From Bacteroidia bacterium (lineage in GTDB: Bacteria > Bacteroidota > Bacteroidia > SpSt-205): a stretch of 64,000 nt of DNA. The DNA lies in assembly GCA_026414975.1 (NCBI GenBank), contig JAOAHZ010000008.1:62001-126000 (forward strand), given 5' to 3'. Positions 843 through 56,020 of the stretch are shown piece after piece (position 1 is the stretch's first letter; each line of letters opens with the position of its first letter). The notes beneath the pieces are model-generated. The model worked only from the letters and a program-made list of their open reading frames with translations. It did not search any database and was not told where the DNA came from. Position numbers and translations under genes: made by a program.

Positions 843-1379
843 TCAGTTGGGGTAGGAAAGGATATGCACGATAGGCACGCCAAAGGGTTCTAAGGCTTGA
901 CGACCCCCTAAGTTTTCAAGAACAATCAAGAAGGAAAATCCTACTAGGGTAGCCCCGATCTGTTCAACCAGTTTAGCAGCGGCAGCGGCTGTCCCCCCTG
1001 TAGCAAGAAGGTCATCGTGAATCAAAACCCGATCCCCTGGTTGAAGGGCATCTTTGGGTATCTCTACGGTAGCTGAGCCGTACTCTAACTCATAAGATAC
1101 ACTGGCTGCCACTTCTGGGAGCTTACCCTTTTTGCGGACTATGGCAAAGCCTGCCCCAAGCTCAAGAGCAATCATCGGCCCCATCAAGAAGCCTCGGCTT
1201 TCTATACCAACCACCTTCGTTACATCTCGGACACGAAAGTGGCGAGATAACTCCTCTACGCATCGCTCCACGAGCTTTGGCTTGAGAAAGATAGGAGATA
1301 TATCCCTAAACAGCACGCCTTTCTGAGGAAAATCTGGTATAGTACGAACGGTCTGTTGAAGCTCTTTTTCTAAAAGCAT
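843..1379 (-). CDS. apt: Adenine phosphoribosyltransferase
   Basis: This enzyme makes AMP from adenine and PRPP in purine salvage. The 178-residue protein carries the PRPP-binding loop VLIHDDLLATGGT near residues 120-132, the FRDISPI motif near the N-terminus and the VGIESRGF motif characteristic of APT. A GTG two codons upstream (1385) is open, but ATG 1379 is preferred because TAACTTTG ends five bases before it. That promoter contains the TAA stop codon of the upstream HhH gene, so apt probably has its own transcript although it looks like the second gene of an operon. Confidence 0.95.
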   Translation of the reverse strand: MLLEKELQQTVRTIPDFPQKGVLFRDISPIFLKPKLVERCVEELSRHFRVRDVTKVVGIESRGFLMGPMIALELGAGFAIVRKKGKLPEVAASVSYELEYGSATVEIPKDALQPGDRVLIHDDLLATGGTAAAAAKLVEQIGATLVGFSFLIVLENLGGRQALEPFGVPIVHILSYPN

Positions 1380-1384
1380 CGGCA

Positions 1385-1392
1385 CAAAGTTA
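1385..1392 (-). promoter_or_regulatory. -7 promoter element TAACTTTG of apt, containing the upstream stop codon
   Basis: On the minus strand the bases read TAACTTTG followed by TGCCG and the ATG of apt. The first three bases (1392-1390) are also the TAA stop codon of the HhH gene. It matches the Bacteroidota consensus TAnnTTTG exactly. Confidence 0.7.
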
Positions 1393-2385
1393 CTCGCCCG
1401 TGAGATACCCCTTAAGGCGATCTTTTAGGGAATCGGGCAGCCAACCTTGCCAGATTTCAGGTGGGATTGGCTCAGGTCCCCAGAGCGTCCGCTCCTGCAC
1501 GAGTCGGCGCGCCAGCTTCCATGAGATGTAAGGGTGGGCCGCTAAAGACTCAACAGGGGCATATCTCAAAGACAAGGGGGGCCGCTTAGGGGGGCCAATA
1601 TACAAGTAGGGTATAGATTTTTGGATAGCCTCTGGGCGAAGGCCCCATATCTCACGAAGCTGCTCTAAAGAGATAAAGTAGCGCAGTTTAGCCCTATATT
1701 TCACAATCCGCTCAGCCGATTTAGTCCCTATACCTGGAAGCTGTTCCAGCTCGGCTGCAGTGGCAGCGTTGAGGTCCAAACGCCAAGGCCCACGCCGCTC
1801 TTTCCCAAAAGAGAGGGAAACACCACCCAACGAGCCGTATATACGAAGCCGATGGCGCTCCAGCGCATGCAGGCCCCGAAATGAGTCTATCTCTGCCCAG
1901 TCCGAAAAACCACCCAACTTATACCGGTACCGGATGAATCTCCCGGCTATAGAGGAACGACATAAAAGCGAGGCAGCAAGCTGGCCGCTGTCCACAGCGT
2001 TTAGATTGAGAGGATGTGTAGGCGGCGATGTTATGGGCCGAGCCTCCACTTCAGCTGCTATAGCTCTCCAATTCAAGCTATCTAAAACAACACGTACCTC
2101 CACAGTGTCCCAAAATCCTCCTAAAGCTCTACGCCAGTACAGAAGGCGATGCACTTTCCACGGCATCATACCAGAAAGGGATAGAAGCTGGAGACTATCG
2201 GCGGCGTTTATATCTACTCGGGGAGCCCCCGGTAAGTCCAATGACCCAGAGCTCCTCAAGCGATAAAGACCAGGCAGACTAAAAAGCAGAACCACCCCAC
2301 TCCAACCTACAAAACTCCATCCGGAGGGTTGACTTCGCAGACGCAGTCTGTGAGAGGCTCGTTTGGAAGGCGATGTCCCTCTCAT
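1390..2385 (-). CDS. ComEA-like protein with repeated helix-hairpin-helix motifs
   Basis: The 331-residue protein has a single hydrophobic segment near residues 23-43, probably a membrane anchor, followed by four degenerate HhH units. They begin VDINAADSLQLL, LNLNAVDSGQLA, LDLNAATAAELEQLPGIG and LSLRYAPVESLA; the third is the best preserved, with the LPGIGxxxAxxI turn. Such motifs bind DNA non-specifically in ComEA and related proteins. Bacteroidota often carry multi-HhH proteins of this type with no proven function; DNA uptake or envelope-associated DNA binding is an inference. A near-consensus CTATTTTG sits five bases before ATG 2385. Confidence 0.75.
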   Translation of the reverse strand: MRGTSPSKRASHRLRLRSQPSGWSFVGWSGVVLLFSLPGLYRLRSSGSLDLPGAPRVDINAADSLQLLSLSGMMPWKVHRLLYWRRALGGFWDTVEVRVVLDSLNWRAIAAEVEARPITSPPTHPLNLNAVDSGQLAASLLCRSSIAGRFIRYRYKLGGFSDWAEIDSFRGLHALERHRLRIYGSLGGVSLSFGKERRGPWRLDLNAATAAELEQLPGIGTKSAERIVKYRAKLRYFISLEQLREIWGLRPEAIQKSIPYLYIGPPKRPPLSLRYAPVESLAAHPYISWKLARRLVQERTLWGPEPIPPEIWQGWLPDSLKDRLKGYLTGE

Positions 2386-2390
2386 GCACT

Positions 2391-2398
2391 CAAAATAG
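2391..2398 (-). promoter_or_regulatory. Degenerate -7 element (CTATTTTG) of the HhH gene
   Basis: It lies five bases before the ATG at 2385, the same geometry as the exact TAnnTTTG elements elsewhere in the window, but one base is missing from the consensus spacing. Confidence 0.4.
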
Positions 2399-2557
2399 TC
2401 ATAAAGACCTTATCTGGCTTGCTAAGAGCTTTCGCGCATGCTGAACCGCCTCCATGCCAACCTGACGAATCACTCAAACGAAGGGGCCAAGCCACCAAAC
2501 GAATCTCCCCCCTCTTGCTCTGTACCGCCTCAGCTTAGTTCTTTCGGTGGTTTTCAG

Positions 2558-13111: not shown

Positions 13112-13119
13112 TACCTTTG
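13112..13119 (+). promoter_or_regulatory. -7 element TACCTTTG of the acyl-CoA dehydrogenase gene
   Basis: Exact TAnnTTTG, followed by AAGC and ATG 13124. Predicts a leaderless or nearly leaderless mRNA. Confidence 0.7.
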
Positions 13120-19452: not shown

Positions 19453-19460
19453 CAAAGTTA
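19453..19460 (-). promoter_or_regulatory. -7 element TAACTTTG of the hydroxylase gene
   Basis: Exact TAnnTTTG, four bases (CCCC) before ATG 19448 on the minus strand; it lies in the short gap after the prfB stop codon at 19478. Confidence 0.7.
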
Positions 19461-20720: not shown

Positions 20721-21602
20721 GTGCGATGGATTATCTGGATGATCCTGCTCTTAGGGCTCATGTACGGGCAGGACAAAACCTCTCAAGAAGGGAGTTACGA
20801 GGAAGATTTTTTAGAAGACATTTTTTCAGAGCCCCCCTTACAAGCCCCAAAGCCCGATACAATCCCCCTTCAAGCAGACAGTTATTCGCTCACAGAGGAT
20901 ACCGTTTTGAATCCACCCAAACCCTTTCCACCCCTGCGCCTCATAGACTCACCTATCCAACGCAGCCTTCCAGTCGGAGGAAATACCCGTATCACCCTCT
21001 CTACCAATCGCCCATTCCTCGTGCAAATCGTACGCCCTAAACTCCAAAATGCTAAGGGATATCCTCTAATCTACGGCTTTGACACCTGGTATTTGTATAT
21101 CGTGAAAGCGGAGCAAGTAAGAGTCCGGGGTAAAACCCTCCAAACCAACGGTCTCCCTGTATATCTCACCATAGTGAGTTCAGCTAAAACCCTAGAGGAT
21201 ATACCAACAGTAGTGGAGAGCACGGCTCTCATGATAAAAGGACTGGTAGATTATGGAGACACAATCGTAAAGCACTTCAAACGAGAGAAGAAGCGCCTCA
21301 AAATAACATTAGACAGCCTTCTGGCGCAACCCATCCCCGACGACGAAATACAAGCAGAGGAGCAAAGGAACCTAATAGAGCGTGTAGCAGACTCTCTAGA
21401 CTATGCGGAAAGCTATTACGAGTTATACCGTAACTTCAAGCGAGCCAAAGCTTCGGAAAAGGCTCTTGTTCAATTCTTTCTTACCTATCCATTCAATCGC
21501 AGCCTAAGCTACTCTATTTACTCAGCACCTTATGCTCTGCCAAGATACGCCCCCCCCAAAGAAGAGTCGCCTCCGCCTATATCTAAGCGCAAGCGGTCGT
21601 AG
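20721..21602 (+). CDS. Secreted protein of unknown function
   Basis: The 293-residue protein begins, from GTG 20721, with a clear signal peptide (MRWIIWMILLLGLMYGQ). Residues about 20-80 are acidic and proline-rich and probably disordered. The core around GNTRITLSTNRPFLVQIVRP and YPLIYGFDTWYLYIVK looks like a small beta domain, followed by a charged helical stretch (VKHFKREKKRLKITLDSLL) and a basic tail. I do not recognise a family. The rhomboid gene follows, but with its own promoter embedded in this gene's stop codon. Confidence 0.7.
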   Translation: MRWIIWMILLLGLMYGQDKTSQEGSYEEDFLEDIFSEPPLQAPKPDTIPLQADSYSLTEDTVLNPPKPFPPLRLIDSPIQRSLPVGGNTRITLSTNRPFLVQIVRPKLQNAKGYPLIYGFDTWYLYIVKAEQVRVRGKTLQTNGLPVYLTIVSSAKTLEDIPTVVESTALMIKGLVDYGDTIVKHFKREKKRLKITLDSLLAQPIPDDEIQAEEQRNLIERVADSLDYAESYYELYRNFKRAKASEKALVQFFLTYPFNRSLSYSIYSAPYALPRYAPPKEESPPPISKRKRS

Positions 21603-21607
21603 ATTTG
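21600..21607 (+). promoter_or_regulatory. -7 element TAGATTTG of the rhomboid gene, containing the upstream stop codon
   Basis: The TAG at 21600-21602 ends the preceding gene and is also the TA of an exact TAnnTTTG; six bases later is ATG 21614. Confidence 0.65.
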
Positions 21608-21613
21608 CTAGGA

Positions 21614-22180
21614 ATGCGTAACTCCGTACTACCCCACCTTATCATCATTAATGGGCTCATATGGTTAGCCAGTTTTCGATTTCCGATGCTTCCCTTCTAT
21701 CTTGCCGTCCATAAAGAGGGACTTGGATTTGAAGTTTGGCAAATCTTTACCTACTTTTTTACGCATTCCAGTTTTTGGCACATTTTAGCCAATATGATAG
21801 CTCTATGGAGCTTAGGCAGTGCAGTAGAACCTGTCGTGGGTAGTAGGGAGTTTCTAATCATGTATTTATTCGTGGGGATTGTTTCGGGACTGGCCTTAGC
21901 CTTTTTAGACCCATCTCCGGCTCCTGTCTTAGGGGCTTCTACGAGTGTAAGTGGCCTCTTGACAGCTTTTGCCTACTTTTTCCCCCGCTCTCAGCTGGTG
22001 ATTTTTCCCATACCCCTTCCTATCAAGGCAAAGTGGCTGGCCATTGGTTTCGCTATAATCTCTTTAGCCCTATTTTTGATTCAGCCTGTTATGGGAGGCA
22101 TCTCTCACTTTGGACATTTATGCGGATTAGTCTTGGGTTGGATCTATGTGCGCTGGCTCTGGCGGCGATGGAGTATCTGA
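21614..22180 (+). CDS. Rhomboid family intramembrane serine protease
   Basis: The 188-residue inner-membrane protein has six membrane segments, the minimal rhomboid core. The conserved WHILANM (oxyanion Asn), the catalytic-Ser region GASTSVSGLL (G-x-S as in GASG of other rhomboids) and the histidine in GGISHFGHLCGLVLGW are present, so it should be an active protease. Substrates are unknown. ATG 21614 is preferred over TTG 21605 because of the TAGATTTG element. Its last 54 bp overlap the 3' end of the convergent scpB gene. Confidence 0.9.
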   Translation: MRNSVLPHLIIINGLIWLASFRFPMLPFYLAVHKEGLGFEVWQIFTYFFTHSSFWHILANMIALWSLGSAVEPVVGSREFLIMYLFVGIVSGLALAFLDPSPAPVLGASTSVSGLLTAFAYFFPRSQLVIFPIPLPIKAKWLAIGFAIISLALFLIQPVMGGISHFGHLCGLVLGWIYVRWLWRRWSI

Positions 22181-26444: not shown

Positions 26445-26452
26445 TATTTTTG
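26445..26452 (+). promoter_or_regulatory. -7 element TATTTTTG of the modular secreted protein
   Basis: Exact TAnnTTTG, four bases (CTCT) before ATG 26457. Confidence 0.7.
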
Positions 26453-41746: not shown

Positions 41747-43025
41747 CTGGCCAGTCTGGCTTTTCCTACTTATTACAAGCGCCTGCCAGTCCCAGCCCGC
41801 CATACTTACAGGTGAAATAGAGGGGCTCGCTAGAGACTCCATCCATCTATACCGATGGGAAGCCGGGCGATGGGAAAAAGTGATAGGGGCAAAACTTGAG
41901 AATGGAAGGTTTAGCCTCCGAGGCATGATTCCGGCAGGAGCCTATCTTTGGGGCATTTCTCCTCAAGAAGGGGATATAGTTATACTCAATGGGAAAGAGG
42001 CTCCTCATATTCGTGGGAAGATCGCCCAACTACTTCAAACCTATACTTATGAGAAAAGCTCTGAAAATGAAGCCCTCTTACAGTTTCGTCGAGCGATAAA
42101 TAACGCTTATCAACGGCTAAGTCAAGCAGCCCCTGACCAAAGGGCCTCCATTCAGCTATCCATAGATAGTCTGCTACAAGCTGCCGAAAAAAGTCCATTT
42201 CGCAGCTTGCGTGCATACAGCTGGCTATTTCGCTCTCCGACTCCGCTGAATTCAGCATCTGATGTCTTCTCCAAGTGGCGTGAGATGGAGAGAGCCTTCT
42301 GGAGCGGCTTCAGTTGGGATAATCCGCTTTTACCTCAGCTCCCCGAGACATTTATGCGGATGCAGAGCTTCTGGCAAAATGTCTTAGCGGTCATTCCCGA
42401 GGATTCTGTATGGAAATATGGAGAGGCCTGGGTCGGAAAGCTTCCTGTCTCTCTACACGCTACAGCTTGGATGGGGCTATTAGATGCAAGTCAGCGATTT
42501 CAGCTTACTGAAACAATGCTCTTTGCTGGAGAGAAATTTCTATCGGTAAGTCCCCAAGACCCACGCAGACCACAAATAGAGCAGTTTATTCAAGTGGAGG
42601 GACGCCTTCGGCGAGGTCAGCCTGCGCCGGATATCACCCTTCCTGACACTGAGGGGAAAATAAGGCGCCTTTCAGACCTTCGGGGCAAATGGGTCCTCAT
42701 AGACTTTTGGGCAAGCTGGTGCCGCCCCTGTCGCATGGAGAATCCGAATGTCGTTCGTTTGTATCAAAAATATAAGTCGCGTGGATTTGAAATCTTCGGG
42801 GTCAGTCTTGACCAAAACCGTGAGGCTTGGCTGCAAGCAATCCGGAACGATAATCTCACTTGGATCCACGTGAGTGATCTGCGGGGCTGGCAGAGCGCTG
42901 GCGCTCAACTTTATCGTGTCTCGGGCATTCCTTTCACTGTGCTGGTAGACCCTGAAGGACGTATCTCCGCTAAGGGACTGCGCGGAGAAAGTTTAGAAGC
43001 CAAGCTCAAGGAAATTTTCCCTTGA
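41724..43025 (+). CDS. TlpA-like thiol-disulfide lipoprotein with DUF4369-type N-terminus
   Basis: A 433-residue lipoprotein (signal peptide with lipobox ITSAC). Residues about 25-110 resemble the DUF4369 beta domain found before Bacteroidota thioredoxins, a helical middle follows, and the last 140 residues are a TlpA/ResA-type thioredoxin: PAPDITLPDTEGKIRRLSDL, then DFWASWCRPCRMENPN with the CxxC active site and GIPFTVLVDPEG with the cis-Pro. It should reduce or exchange disulfides outside the cytoplasm. It overlaps both neighbours (23 bp upstream; TTGA with era). Confidence 0.88.
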   Translation: MQHRNGHNWPVWLFLLITSACQSQPAILTGEIEGLARDSIHLYRWEAGRWEKVIGAKLENGRFSLRGMIPAGAYLWGISPQEGDIVILNGKEAPHIRGKIAQLLQTYTYEKSSENEALLQFRRAINNAYQRLSQAAPDQRASIQLSIDSLLQAAEKSPFRSLRAYSWLFRSPTPLNSASDVFSKWREMERAFWSGFSWDNPLLPQLPETFMRMQSFWQNVLAVIPEDSVWKYGEAWVGKLPVSLHATAWMGLLDASQRFQLTETMLFAGEKFLSVSPQDPRRPQIEQFIQVEGRLRRGQPAPDITLPDTEGKIRRLSDLRGKWVLIDFWASWCRPCRMENPNVVRLYQKYKSRGFEIFGVSLDQNREAWLQAIRNDNLTWIHVSDLRGWQSAGAQLYRVSGIPFTVLVDPEGRISAKGLRGESLEAKLKEIFP

Positions 43026-43909
43026 CCCGAGCAGGTTTTATTGCTCTCTTGGGCTTTCCTAACGCAGGAAAATCCACCCTACTCAATCGGCTGGTTGGCT
43101 ACCCTCTCTCTGCTATTACTCCTAAGCCTCAGACCACCCGCTTCAGCATACCTGCTATTCTCACGACGAGCGATACACAGTATATCTTTATAGACACACC
43201 GGGCTGGATAGCTCACCCTAAAAACATGTGGCACCGAGCCCTGATGCACCAGAGCCTATCAGCCGCCCGTGACTCAGACGTGCAAGTGTGGGTTCTATCC
43301 CTGACCCAAAACGAGCTTGCCCTGCCCGAACCCATAGAAACTCTGGCTCAGAACTTACCCTATCTTTTGGGAGCTTTCTCTCACGGCGATAAGCTCTCCC
43401 CACCCGACCGTGCTAAACAAATTGCATATATCCAAGACGCTTTATCCAGATTTCCCTTCAAGGGGTGGACCGACGCATCATTAGATCAACCTTTGGACCC
43501 ATTCCTTAAGCTCGTTGCAAGTGGTCTGCCGACAAGTCCTTTTCTTTATCCAGAAGGCGACATAACGATTCTCCCCCTCCGATTCTTTGTGGGGGAAATT
43601 CTACGAGAGGTGCTTTACAGGCACCTTCATGAGGAAATACCTTATGGAGCCGAAGTACAAGTGTCCCAGTATAGTGAGAAAGAAGATCGCGATTACATAG
43701 CAGCGACGATCTATGTTGAAAAGGATTCACATAAGAAGATCCTCATCGGCCAAAATGGACAGATGATTAAGAAAATCGGCACTGAAGCACGAATGAAAAT
43801 AGAAGGGCTCCTTGGAAAGCCTATTTACTTAGACCTGTACGTGAAGGTAGCTCCAAAGTGGCGCCGTTCTCCTCGCCTTCTTCGGAGTTTAGGCTATGGA
43901 ACGTCCTAA
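43022..43909 (+). CDS. era: GTPase Era with an atypical G4 region
   Basis: Era binds 16S rRNA and helps 30S assembly. The 295-residue protein has G1 GFPNAGKSTLLNRL, the switch I Thr in KPQTTRFSI, G3 DTPGW and a C-terminal KH domain with GQNGQMIKKIGTEARMKIE. The G4 NKxD that reads guanine is replaced by SHGDKL near residue 120, and the G5 SAx is not evident. The start is TTG 43022, overlapping the TlpA stop; any later start would lose G1. Its TAA stop is part of the promoter of the next gene. Confidence 0.92.
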   Translation: MTRAGFIALLGFPNAGKSTLLNRLVGYPLSAITPKPQTTRFSIPAILTTSDTQYIFIDTPGWIAHPKNMWHRALMHQSLSAARDSDVQVWVLSLTQNELALPEPIETLAQNLPYLLGAFSHGDKLSPPDRAKQIAYIQDALSRFPFKGWTDASLDQPLDPFLKLVASGLPTSPFLYPEGDITILPLRFFVGEILREVLYRHLHEEIPYGAEVQVSQYSEKEDRDYIAATIYVEKDSHKKILIGQNGQMIKKIGTEARMKIEGLLGKPIYLDLYVKVAPKWRRSPRLLRSLGYGTS

Positions 43910-43914
43910 CTTTG
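43907..43914 (+). promoter_or_regulatory. -7 element TAACTTTG containing the era stop codon
   Basis: The TAA (43907-43909) ends era and begins an exact TAnnTTTG; CAGC and ATG 43919 follow. An internal promoter for the NYN-like-fabI-purB part of the operon. Confidence 0.7.
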
Positions 43915-43918
43915 CAGC

Positions 43919-44758
43919 ATGACGCCCCCGCATGGAGACAAAAAAAAGAAGAAGCGGACTCTCATCGTCATAGATGGAGATGCCCTTCATGAAGGAGCTC
44001 ACTACGACTTTTCTTTCTTGGAAAATGAGAAAAGGTTGGAAATCTGGTTCTTCTACAAGGAGAGGATTAACCACTCTTTCCGTCTGCGGCGAGACTTCTC
44101 GGCTCAGAACATTCTCTTGCCCCGCTATGAGGATGACCTGAACCTTTACATTCTCAAGCGCGTGTGCTATGAGTTGGGGCGCCGAGAAGGACGGTATCGG
44201 AAGGTCCTCCTTATTGGCTCGCTTCATCCTGTATGGGAAGGCCTAGTACAATTCTTGAGAGAGCGGGGGTTGTCGTGTACTCATATATTAGCAGGTGATT
44301 ACATCGTTGAAAAAGAGCCGTCGGCCGTACCAGATTCAGCTAAATTTTATGCAACCAGCGCTACAGCCGAATCATCGCATAAAAAGAGTCCTGAGCCCTC
44401 CGCAAGCCGAGCAGAGCGCCCCAGCAGCGCTCAAGCCCCTAAGACAGCCCGTTCATCGTCTAAGGCGGGGGAGGTGCCCAGCCTTTCAGAAGAAGAAAAA
44501 ATCAAACTCTTCAAGCGCAAAGGGCGAGCCACAGATAAACACATACAAACCTATGAGCGAGTGATAGCCTTTCTCAGAACGCTACCTTCGGGAACTGAAA
44601 TTACTCGCTCAGATTTTCGCCGAAAGCTCAAAGAAATGGGCATAGGTCCTAAATCAAATCTACCGGGCAAGAACCTCTCTTATTTTCTACACCGACTGGA
44701 AAAAGGAGGCTTCATTCAGATTCGTGGGAATAAGATCATTACTTTGGCGGCCCTATGA
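43919..44758 (+). CDS. Unknown protein with a PIN/NYN-like N-terminus and a winged-helix-like C-terminus
   Basis: The 279-residue protein starts with a basic tract (KKKKKRTLIVIDGDALHEG) whose strand ending in Asp, together with later strands (RKVLLIGSLHPVWEGLVQFL; SCTHILAGDYI), resembles the NYN/LabA-type PIN nuclease core. A low-complexity Ser/Ala/Pro linker (about 140-190) leads to a C-terminal domain of about 80 residues (ITRSDFRRKLKEMGI, NLSYFLHRLEKGGFIQIRGN) that looks like a winged helix. An RNA-processing or nucleic-acid-binding role is inference. It has its own promoter and overlaps fabI by ATGA. Confidence 0.65.
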   Translation: MTPPHGDKKKKKRTLIVIDGDALHEGAHYDFSFLENEKRLEIWFFYKERINHSFRLRRDFSAQNILLPRYEDDLNLYILKRVCYELGRREGRYRKVLLIGSLHPVWEGLVQFLRERGLSCTHILAGDYIVEKEPSAVPDSAKFYATSATAESSHKKSPEPSASRAERPSSAQAPKTARSSSKAGEVPSLSEEEKIKLFKRKGRATDKHIQTYERVIAFLRTLPSGTEITRSDFRRKLKEMGIGPKSNLPGKNLSYFLHRLEKGGFIQIRGNKIITLAAL

Positions 44759-56012: not shown

Positions 56013-56020
56013 CAAAGATA
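56013..56020 (-). promoter_or_regulatory. -7 element TATCTTTG of the sppA operon
   Basis: Exact TAnnTTTG, four bases (TCCC) before ATG 56008 on the minus strand. Confidence 0.7.

Follow-up and report, generated by a model that had tools for sequence, protein, structure and literature searches.

Promoters and overlapping signals in the Bacteroidetes

The well-studied Bacteroidetes initiate translation without a Shine-Dalgarno (SD) sequence, use leaders and have few leaderless mRNAs. Among the described systems close to the junction considered here is the sigma-ABfr promoter (TTTG/TAnnTTTG) of B. fragilis, F. johnsoniae and B. thetaiotaomicron, with which it shares the same -7 octamer. TAnnTTTG is the -7 element recognised by Bacteroidetes sigma-A, and transcription in F. 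johnsoniae starts 4-5 nt downstream of it (PMC6847099). The -33 element is much less evident in that species too (PMC6847099), and is therefore not a firm defining feature of sigma-ABfr promoters. A difference lies in the leaders, which are mostly longer in the studied species: 87% exceed 10 nt in F. johnsoniae (PMC6847099), 5.5% of transcripts are leaderless in F. psychrophilum, and 3.7% of B. theta leaders are under 10 nt, whereas in the genome described below the element clusters 3-9 nt from the start codon.

The TA-led genes of Actinobacteria and Deinococcus-Thermus likewise carry a -10/-7 element some 10-12 nt upstream of their start codons, which predicts a leaderless mRNA (Zheng et al. 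2011, PMC3160421). These belong to another phylum and use another sigma motif; here, in addition, where co-directional genes lie 8-60 nt apart, the element stands at the junction in about one third of cases. Stop codons may also overlap the SD of the next gene, since short spacers force the two signals to share bases and shift stop usage (PMC2784483). That signal is translational and favours TGA and TAG, while the one described here is a probable transcription promoter that fits TAA and TAG. Literature searches, which were not exhaustive, returned stop/SD overlaps of this kind but nothing on stop codons that recurrently overlap a -7 element in Bacteroidetes. Finally, the ATGA and TAATG stop-start overlaps found in operons are associated with translational coupling (PMC6728339), and precisely this arrangement joins a helix-hairpin-helix (HhH) gene to apt in several other Bacteroidia families. 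In the genus studied here, by contrast, the junction has widened to 8-10 nt and accommodates a putative promoter.

The HhH-apt junction and its counterparts

The DNA analysed (the window) is a stretch of 64,000 nucleotides (G000:C55:62001-126000) from a genome of 2.21 Mb in 58 contigs, with a GC content of 51% in the part read. The lineage presumably inhabits hot springs, judging by the name of a relative, isolate SKYB95 (Bacteroidia bacterium). On the minus strand, the TAA that closes the HhH open reading frame opens TAACTTTG (1392-1385), which is followed by five nucleotides (TGCCG) and the apt ATG (1379-1377). The junction thus reads ...GGCGAG TAA CTTTG TGCCG ATG CTT..., and TAACTTTG is an exact match to the -7 octamer TAnnTTTG. 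The initial annotation had described a stop codon doubling as the first bases of TAACTTTG, 5 nt from the apt ATG, with 16 bp in total from stop to start, and these particulars are exact. Although a mechanical list of open reading frames begins apt at GTG 1385, the ATG at 1379 is kept by all genus members.

The same overlap had been proposed at 21600 and 43907, and both sites are real, the first combining TAG with TAGATTTG and the second TAA with TAACTTTG (Table 1). At the second, the era stop and the start codon at 43919 are 9 nt apart, of which 4 nt remain after the octamer. The gene at 43919-44758 (plus strand) follows era throughout the genus, and Pfam and NCBIfam searches gave no match to it. 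The HhH gene's own start region (2386-2400, minus strand) has no exact TANNTTTG; what is found there, ahead of the ATG, is TATTTTGAGTGC, which falls one base short of the pattern. Across the genome, TAN-TTTG is slightly over-represented close to start codons (for example, 8 at one gap against a background of 0.3).

Table 1. Features of the apt junction and of other window sites of the same putative promoter class.
Feature	Position in window	Strand	Basis
ComEA-like HhH gene, 331 aa, upstream of apt	1390..2385	-	ORF; Pfam HHH_3 E=3.5e-28; NCBIfam comEA partial match
TAA stop of HhH; in the -7 element its bases serve as T-12, A-11 and N	1390..1392	-	TAA kept in 9/9 genus members with HhH abutting apt
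Probable -7 promoter element TAACTTTG of apt	1385..1392	-	Exact octamer; kept in 11/11 genus members
Predicted apt transcription start, leader 0-1 nt	1379..1380	-	Deduced from the 4-5 nt spacing of -7 element and TSS in F. johnsoniae (PMC6847099)
apt, adenine phosphoribosyltransferase, 178 aa	843..1379	-	NCBIfam TIGR01090 E=5.2e-59, above cut-off
Gene ending in TAG at the rhomboid site, without Pfam match	20721..21602	+	Gene call, Pfam search
TAGATTTG: TAG stop of upstream gene with probable -7 element, 6 nt before rhomboid gene ATG 21614	21600..21607	+	TANNTTTG kept in the 9 genus orthologues recovered
Rhomboid-family protease gene	21614..22180	+	PF01694 E=3.3e-31
era, GTPase Era	43022..43909	+	NF000908 above cut-off
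TAACTTTG: TAA stop of era with probable -7 element, exactly 4 nt before ATG 43919	43907..43914	+	TAA overlap kept in 10/10 other genus members
Uncharacterised gene, predicted leaderless mRNA, predicted TSS at A of ATG	43919..44758	+	Gene call
Non-overlap member: TACCTTTG, 4 nt before ATG 13124	13112..13119	+	ORF list and motif scan
Non-overlap member: TAACTTTG, 4 nt before ATG 19448	19453..19460	-	ORF list and motif scan
Non-overlap member: TATTTTTG, 4 nt before ATG 26457	26445..26452	+	ORF list and motif scan
Non-overlap member: TATCTTTG, 4 nt before ATG 56008	56013..56020	-	ORF list and motif scan

Genome-wide enrichment of the octamer and of stop overlaps

Stretches covering 1.88 Mb of the genome (85%) were read, and 1542 genes were called with a codon-pair model blind to the motif. 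The octamer pattern TANNTTTG shows a sharp peak at a gap of 4 nt ahead of ATG (170 occurrences against about 20 at background gaps) and again ahead of GTG (59 against about 14), while in the part of the genome read no such peak is seen ahead of TTG. It stands 3-9 nt from the start of 339 of the 1542 called genes, with counts of 18, 167, 53, 26, 43, 22 and 10 at the successive gaps, and past 20 nt each position has only about 2. The 167 genes with a gap of 4 consist of 128 with ATG, 39 with GTG and none with TTG. Allowing one mismatch in the octamer made only a small addition.

The window taken by itself leaves some room for the view that CTTTG follows the HhH TAA by chance and that the other two cases are coincidental: plain TANNTTTG occurs 46 times against 30.3 +/- 6.5 in shuffled sequence, a mild excess, and three of the 18 stop overlaps fall in the window where the genome average would predict 0.6 (Poisson P = 0.02). 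The initial annotation had judged chance less likely and had called for a genome-wide count of such overlaps. That count, now carried out, gives a large excess in two species. Among the 51 TAA or TAG stops with the next start 8-14 nt away, 18 form TANNTTTG; of the 772 in other positions, 7 do so (odds ratio 60, p = 2.6e-18). In a second species of the genus (G005; 800 kb read) the figures are 6/23 and 4/251 (p = 3e-5). None of the 19 TGA stops at the 8-14 nt spacing overlaps TANNTTTG. Among the seven overlaps elsewhere, several themselves resemble promoters, one lying between EF-Tu and tRNA-Trp and others running into an ATG. With the three window loci also conserved in 9-11 species, the counts in two genomes lead us to reject coincidence, which retains a negligible probability.

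A promoter element rather than a translation signal

A second reading takes TANNTTTG before start codons as a signal for translation initiation, either Kozak-like or S1-binding, and not as a promoter. The octamer is locked at 4 nt from ATG or GTG and is unaccompanied by a -33 element: an alignment of 339 promoters showed no TTTG or TTG signal in any promoter class, and apt has none either. Nor is SD use visible in this genome, where SD-like words occupy positions -15 to -5 in 83 of the 1542 genes and shifted positions in 100-116; a search with the pattern for the 16S 3' tail gave no match in the genome stretches read.

The tRNA genes decide against this reading. TANNTTTG lies within 60 nt of the mature 5' end of 27 of the 39 tRNA genes, in 26 of these at 4-11 nt, and the tRNA genes that lack a nearby copy are mostly internal to tRNA clusters. 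Because tRNA genes are untranslated and carry the element at the same short distance, the octamer marks transcription and not translation. Besides matching the published -7 consensus of sigma-A, it is nearly absent (13/534) before operon genes that overlap or abut their upstream neighbour, genes for which translation signals are required and a promoter is not. A translation signal is accordingly very improbable. One tRNA gene reproduces the apt arrangement: EF-Tu ends in GAT TAA CTTTG, with its stop TAA opening the TAACTTTG of tRNA-Trp (L044:2389-2407; G000:C22, minus strand), and tRNA-Trp begins 10 nt after this octamer. A -7 element 4-11 nt from mature tRNA 5' ends also predicts precursor 5' leaders of about 0-7 nt, which would leave RNase P with hardly anything to cleave off.

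The sigma factor that the Sigma70_r3 (region 3) model identifies in this genome is a short RpoD-like protein of 292 aa without the long N-terminal region. It aligns to the NCBIfam RpoD models below their cut-offs, and we take it to be sigma-ABfr. The missing N-terminal part and the lack of a -33 element, itself weak or absent in F. johnsoniae, are further points of likeness to the sigma-ABfr system. The interpretation of TAACTTTG as a -7 element, already made in the initial annotation, is thus backed by the tRNA genes, by conservation across species and by the organism's own sigma factor. At the level of sequence, the element, its position, its enrichment and its conservation are established, as is its promoter nature by way of the tRNA genes.

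Conservation and history of the junctions

All 11 genus members have TAACTTTG or TAAATTTG 3-5 nt from the apt ATG. In nine of them HhH abuts apt with an overlapping TAA; in G006 the HhH stop is 217 nt away and TAACTTTG is still present ahead of apt, and in G007 the upstream place is taken by endonuclease III (NCBIfam nth), whose TAA again overlaps TAACTTTG. The era TAA overlap recurs in the 10 other genus members, with gaps of 2 to 8 to the ATG of the 43919 gene, while the sister genus (G011) has the octamer before this gene and no stop overlap. Of the rhomboid gene, nine orthologues were recovered from the genus; all have the octamer and seven have the TAG overlap as well, while the stop is more distant in G006 and G003, where the octamer is retained. 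A reciprocal best hit to the rhomboid protein in one G005 stretch (26% identity) proved to be a non-orthologue, the true orthologue lying elsewhere in G005, and was not used. Since the octamer stays in place where stops shift, it belongs to the downstream gene, with the stop as a movable partner.

Many other Bacteroidia families (apt loci L114-L131) share the HhH-apt order, and there stop and start often overlap or touch (d = -4 to 1) without the octamer. Judged from one sampled genome per family, a promoter was probably inserted in this genus into an ancestral coupled HhH-apt pair.

Why the stop and the promoter share bases

We consider it highly probable that apt has a sigma-A promoter of the sigma-ABfr type, with TAACTTTG as its -7 element, and that this promoter yields a leaderless apt mRNA, with read-through from HhH probable as well. 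RNA polymerase would start 4-5 nt past TAACTTTG, at the apt ATG or one base earlier. The gap of 5 at apt thus predicts a leader of 0-1 nt, and a gap of 4 would give a transcript opening with the start codon. From these spacings we infer the exact start site and leaderless translation. As the junction leaves no room for a terminator, apt is probably transcribed twice over, from its own promoter and by read-through out of HhH; the initial annotation had thought separate or double transcription likely.

With many genes of the genus apparently built alike, the -7 element would be nearly fixed about 12 nt ahead of the start codon, and a co-directional upstream gene ending at that position would have to share bases with it. 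Wherever such sharing is seen, a TAA or TAG stop supplies the first three bases of TAnnTTTG. All 18 overlaps are at offset 0 and none at -2 to -1 or 1 to 7, because a stop inside the octamer can be spelled as TA plus A or G at its first three bases; the other possible spelling, a TGA over the last two bases of the octamer, was not seen. An A or G at position 3, compulsory in overlapping promoters, is used by 65 of 321 free promoters. Overlapping promoters may consequently be weaker than average, given that these bases are uncommon in free promoters and that F. johnsoniae avoids G there.

The initial annotation had called the overlap a trick. It is recurrent, but it is not specially favoured. 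Selection could in principle act on the overlap itself, for instance by coupling HhH termination to apt transcription or by compacting the genome. The overlap is retained at all three loci in most genus members; TAA and TAG are somewhat enriched at the 8-14 nt spacing (51/70, p = 8e-4 against all other stops); and where they overlap, the HhH and era stops stay TAA and that of the rhomboid neighbour stays TAG, against agreement in only 225 of 474 pairs of orthologous stop codons in general. Conservation of the promoter alone, however, already predicts conservation of the stop, and the overlap is missing while the promoter stays in G006 (apt and rhomboid), G003 (rhomboid) and G011 (43919 gene), as well as at other loci. 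Promoter frequency by gene spacing points the same way. Promoters are found at 2.4% (13/534) of junctions that overlap or are spaced at most 7 nt, at 37% (26/70) of those at 8-14 nt and at 33% (64/196) of those at 15-60 nt. Because the last two do not differ (p = 0.56), special selection for the overlap is not needed: it marks the shortest distance at which a promoter can still be fitted in. These figures lend no support to selection acting on the overlap as such, and we regard it as improbable, if somewhat less so than a translation signal.

Within the promoter reading, a tentative extension, conceivable though on balance doubtful, is that a leaderless promoter at a fixed position acts as a ready-made stop codon. 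The HhH-apt pair would have been opened by a promoter whose TAA ends the upstream gene, and any gene brought upstream by rearrangement, such as HhH or, in G007, nth, could end on the same TAA, splitting operons into separately startable genes without added spacer DNA.

A probable lineage-wide shift towards leaderless promoters

The leaderless mRNAs predicted by the spacing appear to be the larger phenomenon, of which the stop overlap is one case, and this had escaped the initial annotation. The TANNTTTG pattern was counted at gaps 4 and 18 before ATG in 198 Bacteroidia genomes. In this genus the first count is 6-8 times the second (192 vs 29 in the present genome, 223 vs 35 in G005). Most of the other genomes give a ratio of about 1, while family f41 (356 vs 161) and a few more fall in between. 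The lineages in which TANNTTTG is partly shifted to 4 nt before ATG include f41/g42, G157 and G197, possibly as independent gains of leaderless promoters.

On these counts and the published leader data, the genus seems to be a branch rich in leaderless mRNAs within a phylum that otherwise mostly uses leaders. The stop overlap is then best understood as one outward result of a shift to leaderless promoters throughout the lineage. What is found at apt would combine features of known kinds, namely a sigma-A -7 promoter, a leaderless gene and an overlap of a stop codon with an initiation signal, and this combination is well supported by the sequence comparisons. The move towards leaderless mRNAs seems to have been a strong one in this genus, made with the ordinary promoter of its phylum. 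Apparent operons here hold many internal promoters, and gene distance alone therefore mispredicts transcription units. The spacing of the octamer also supplies sharp predictions of the start site at hundreds of genes.
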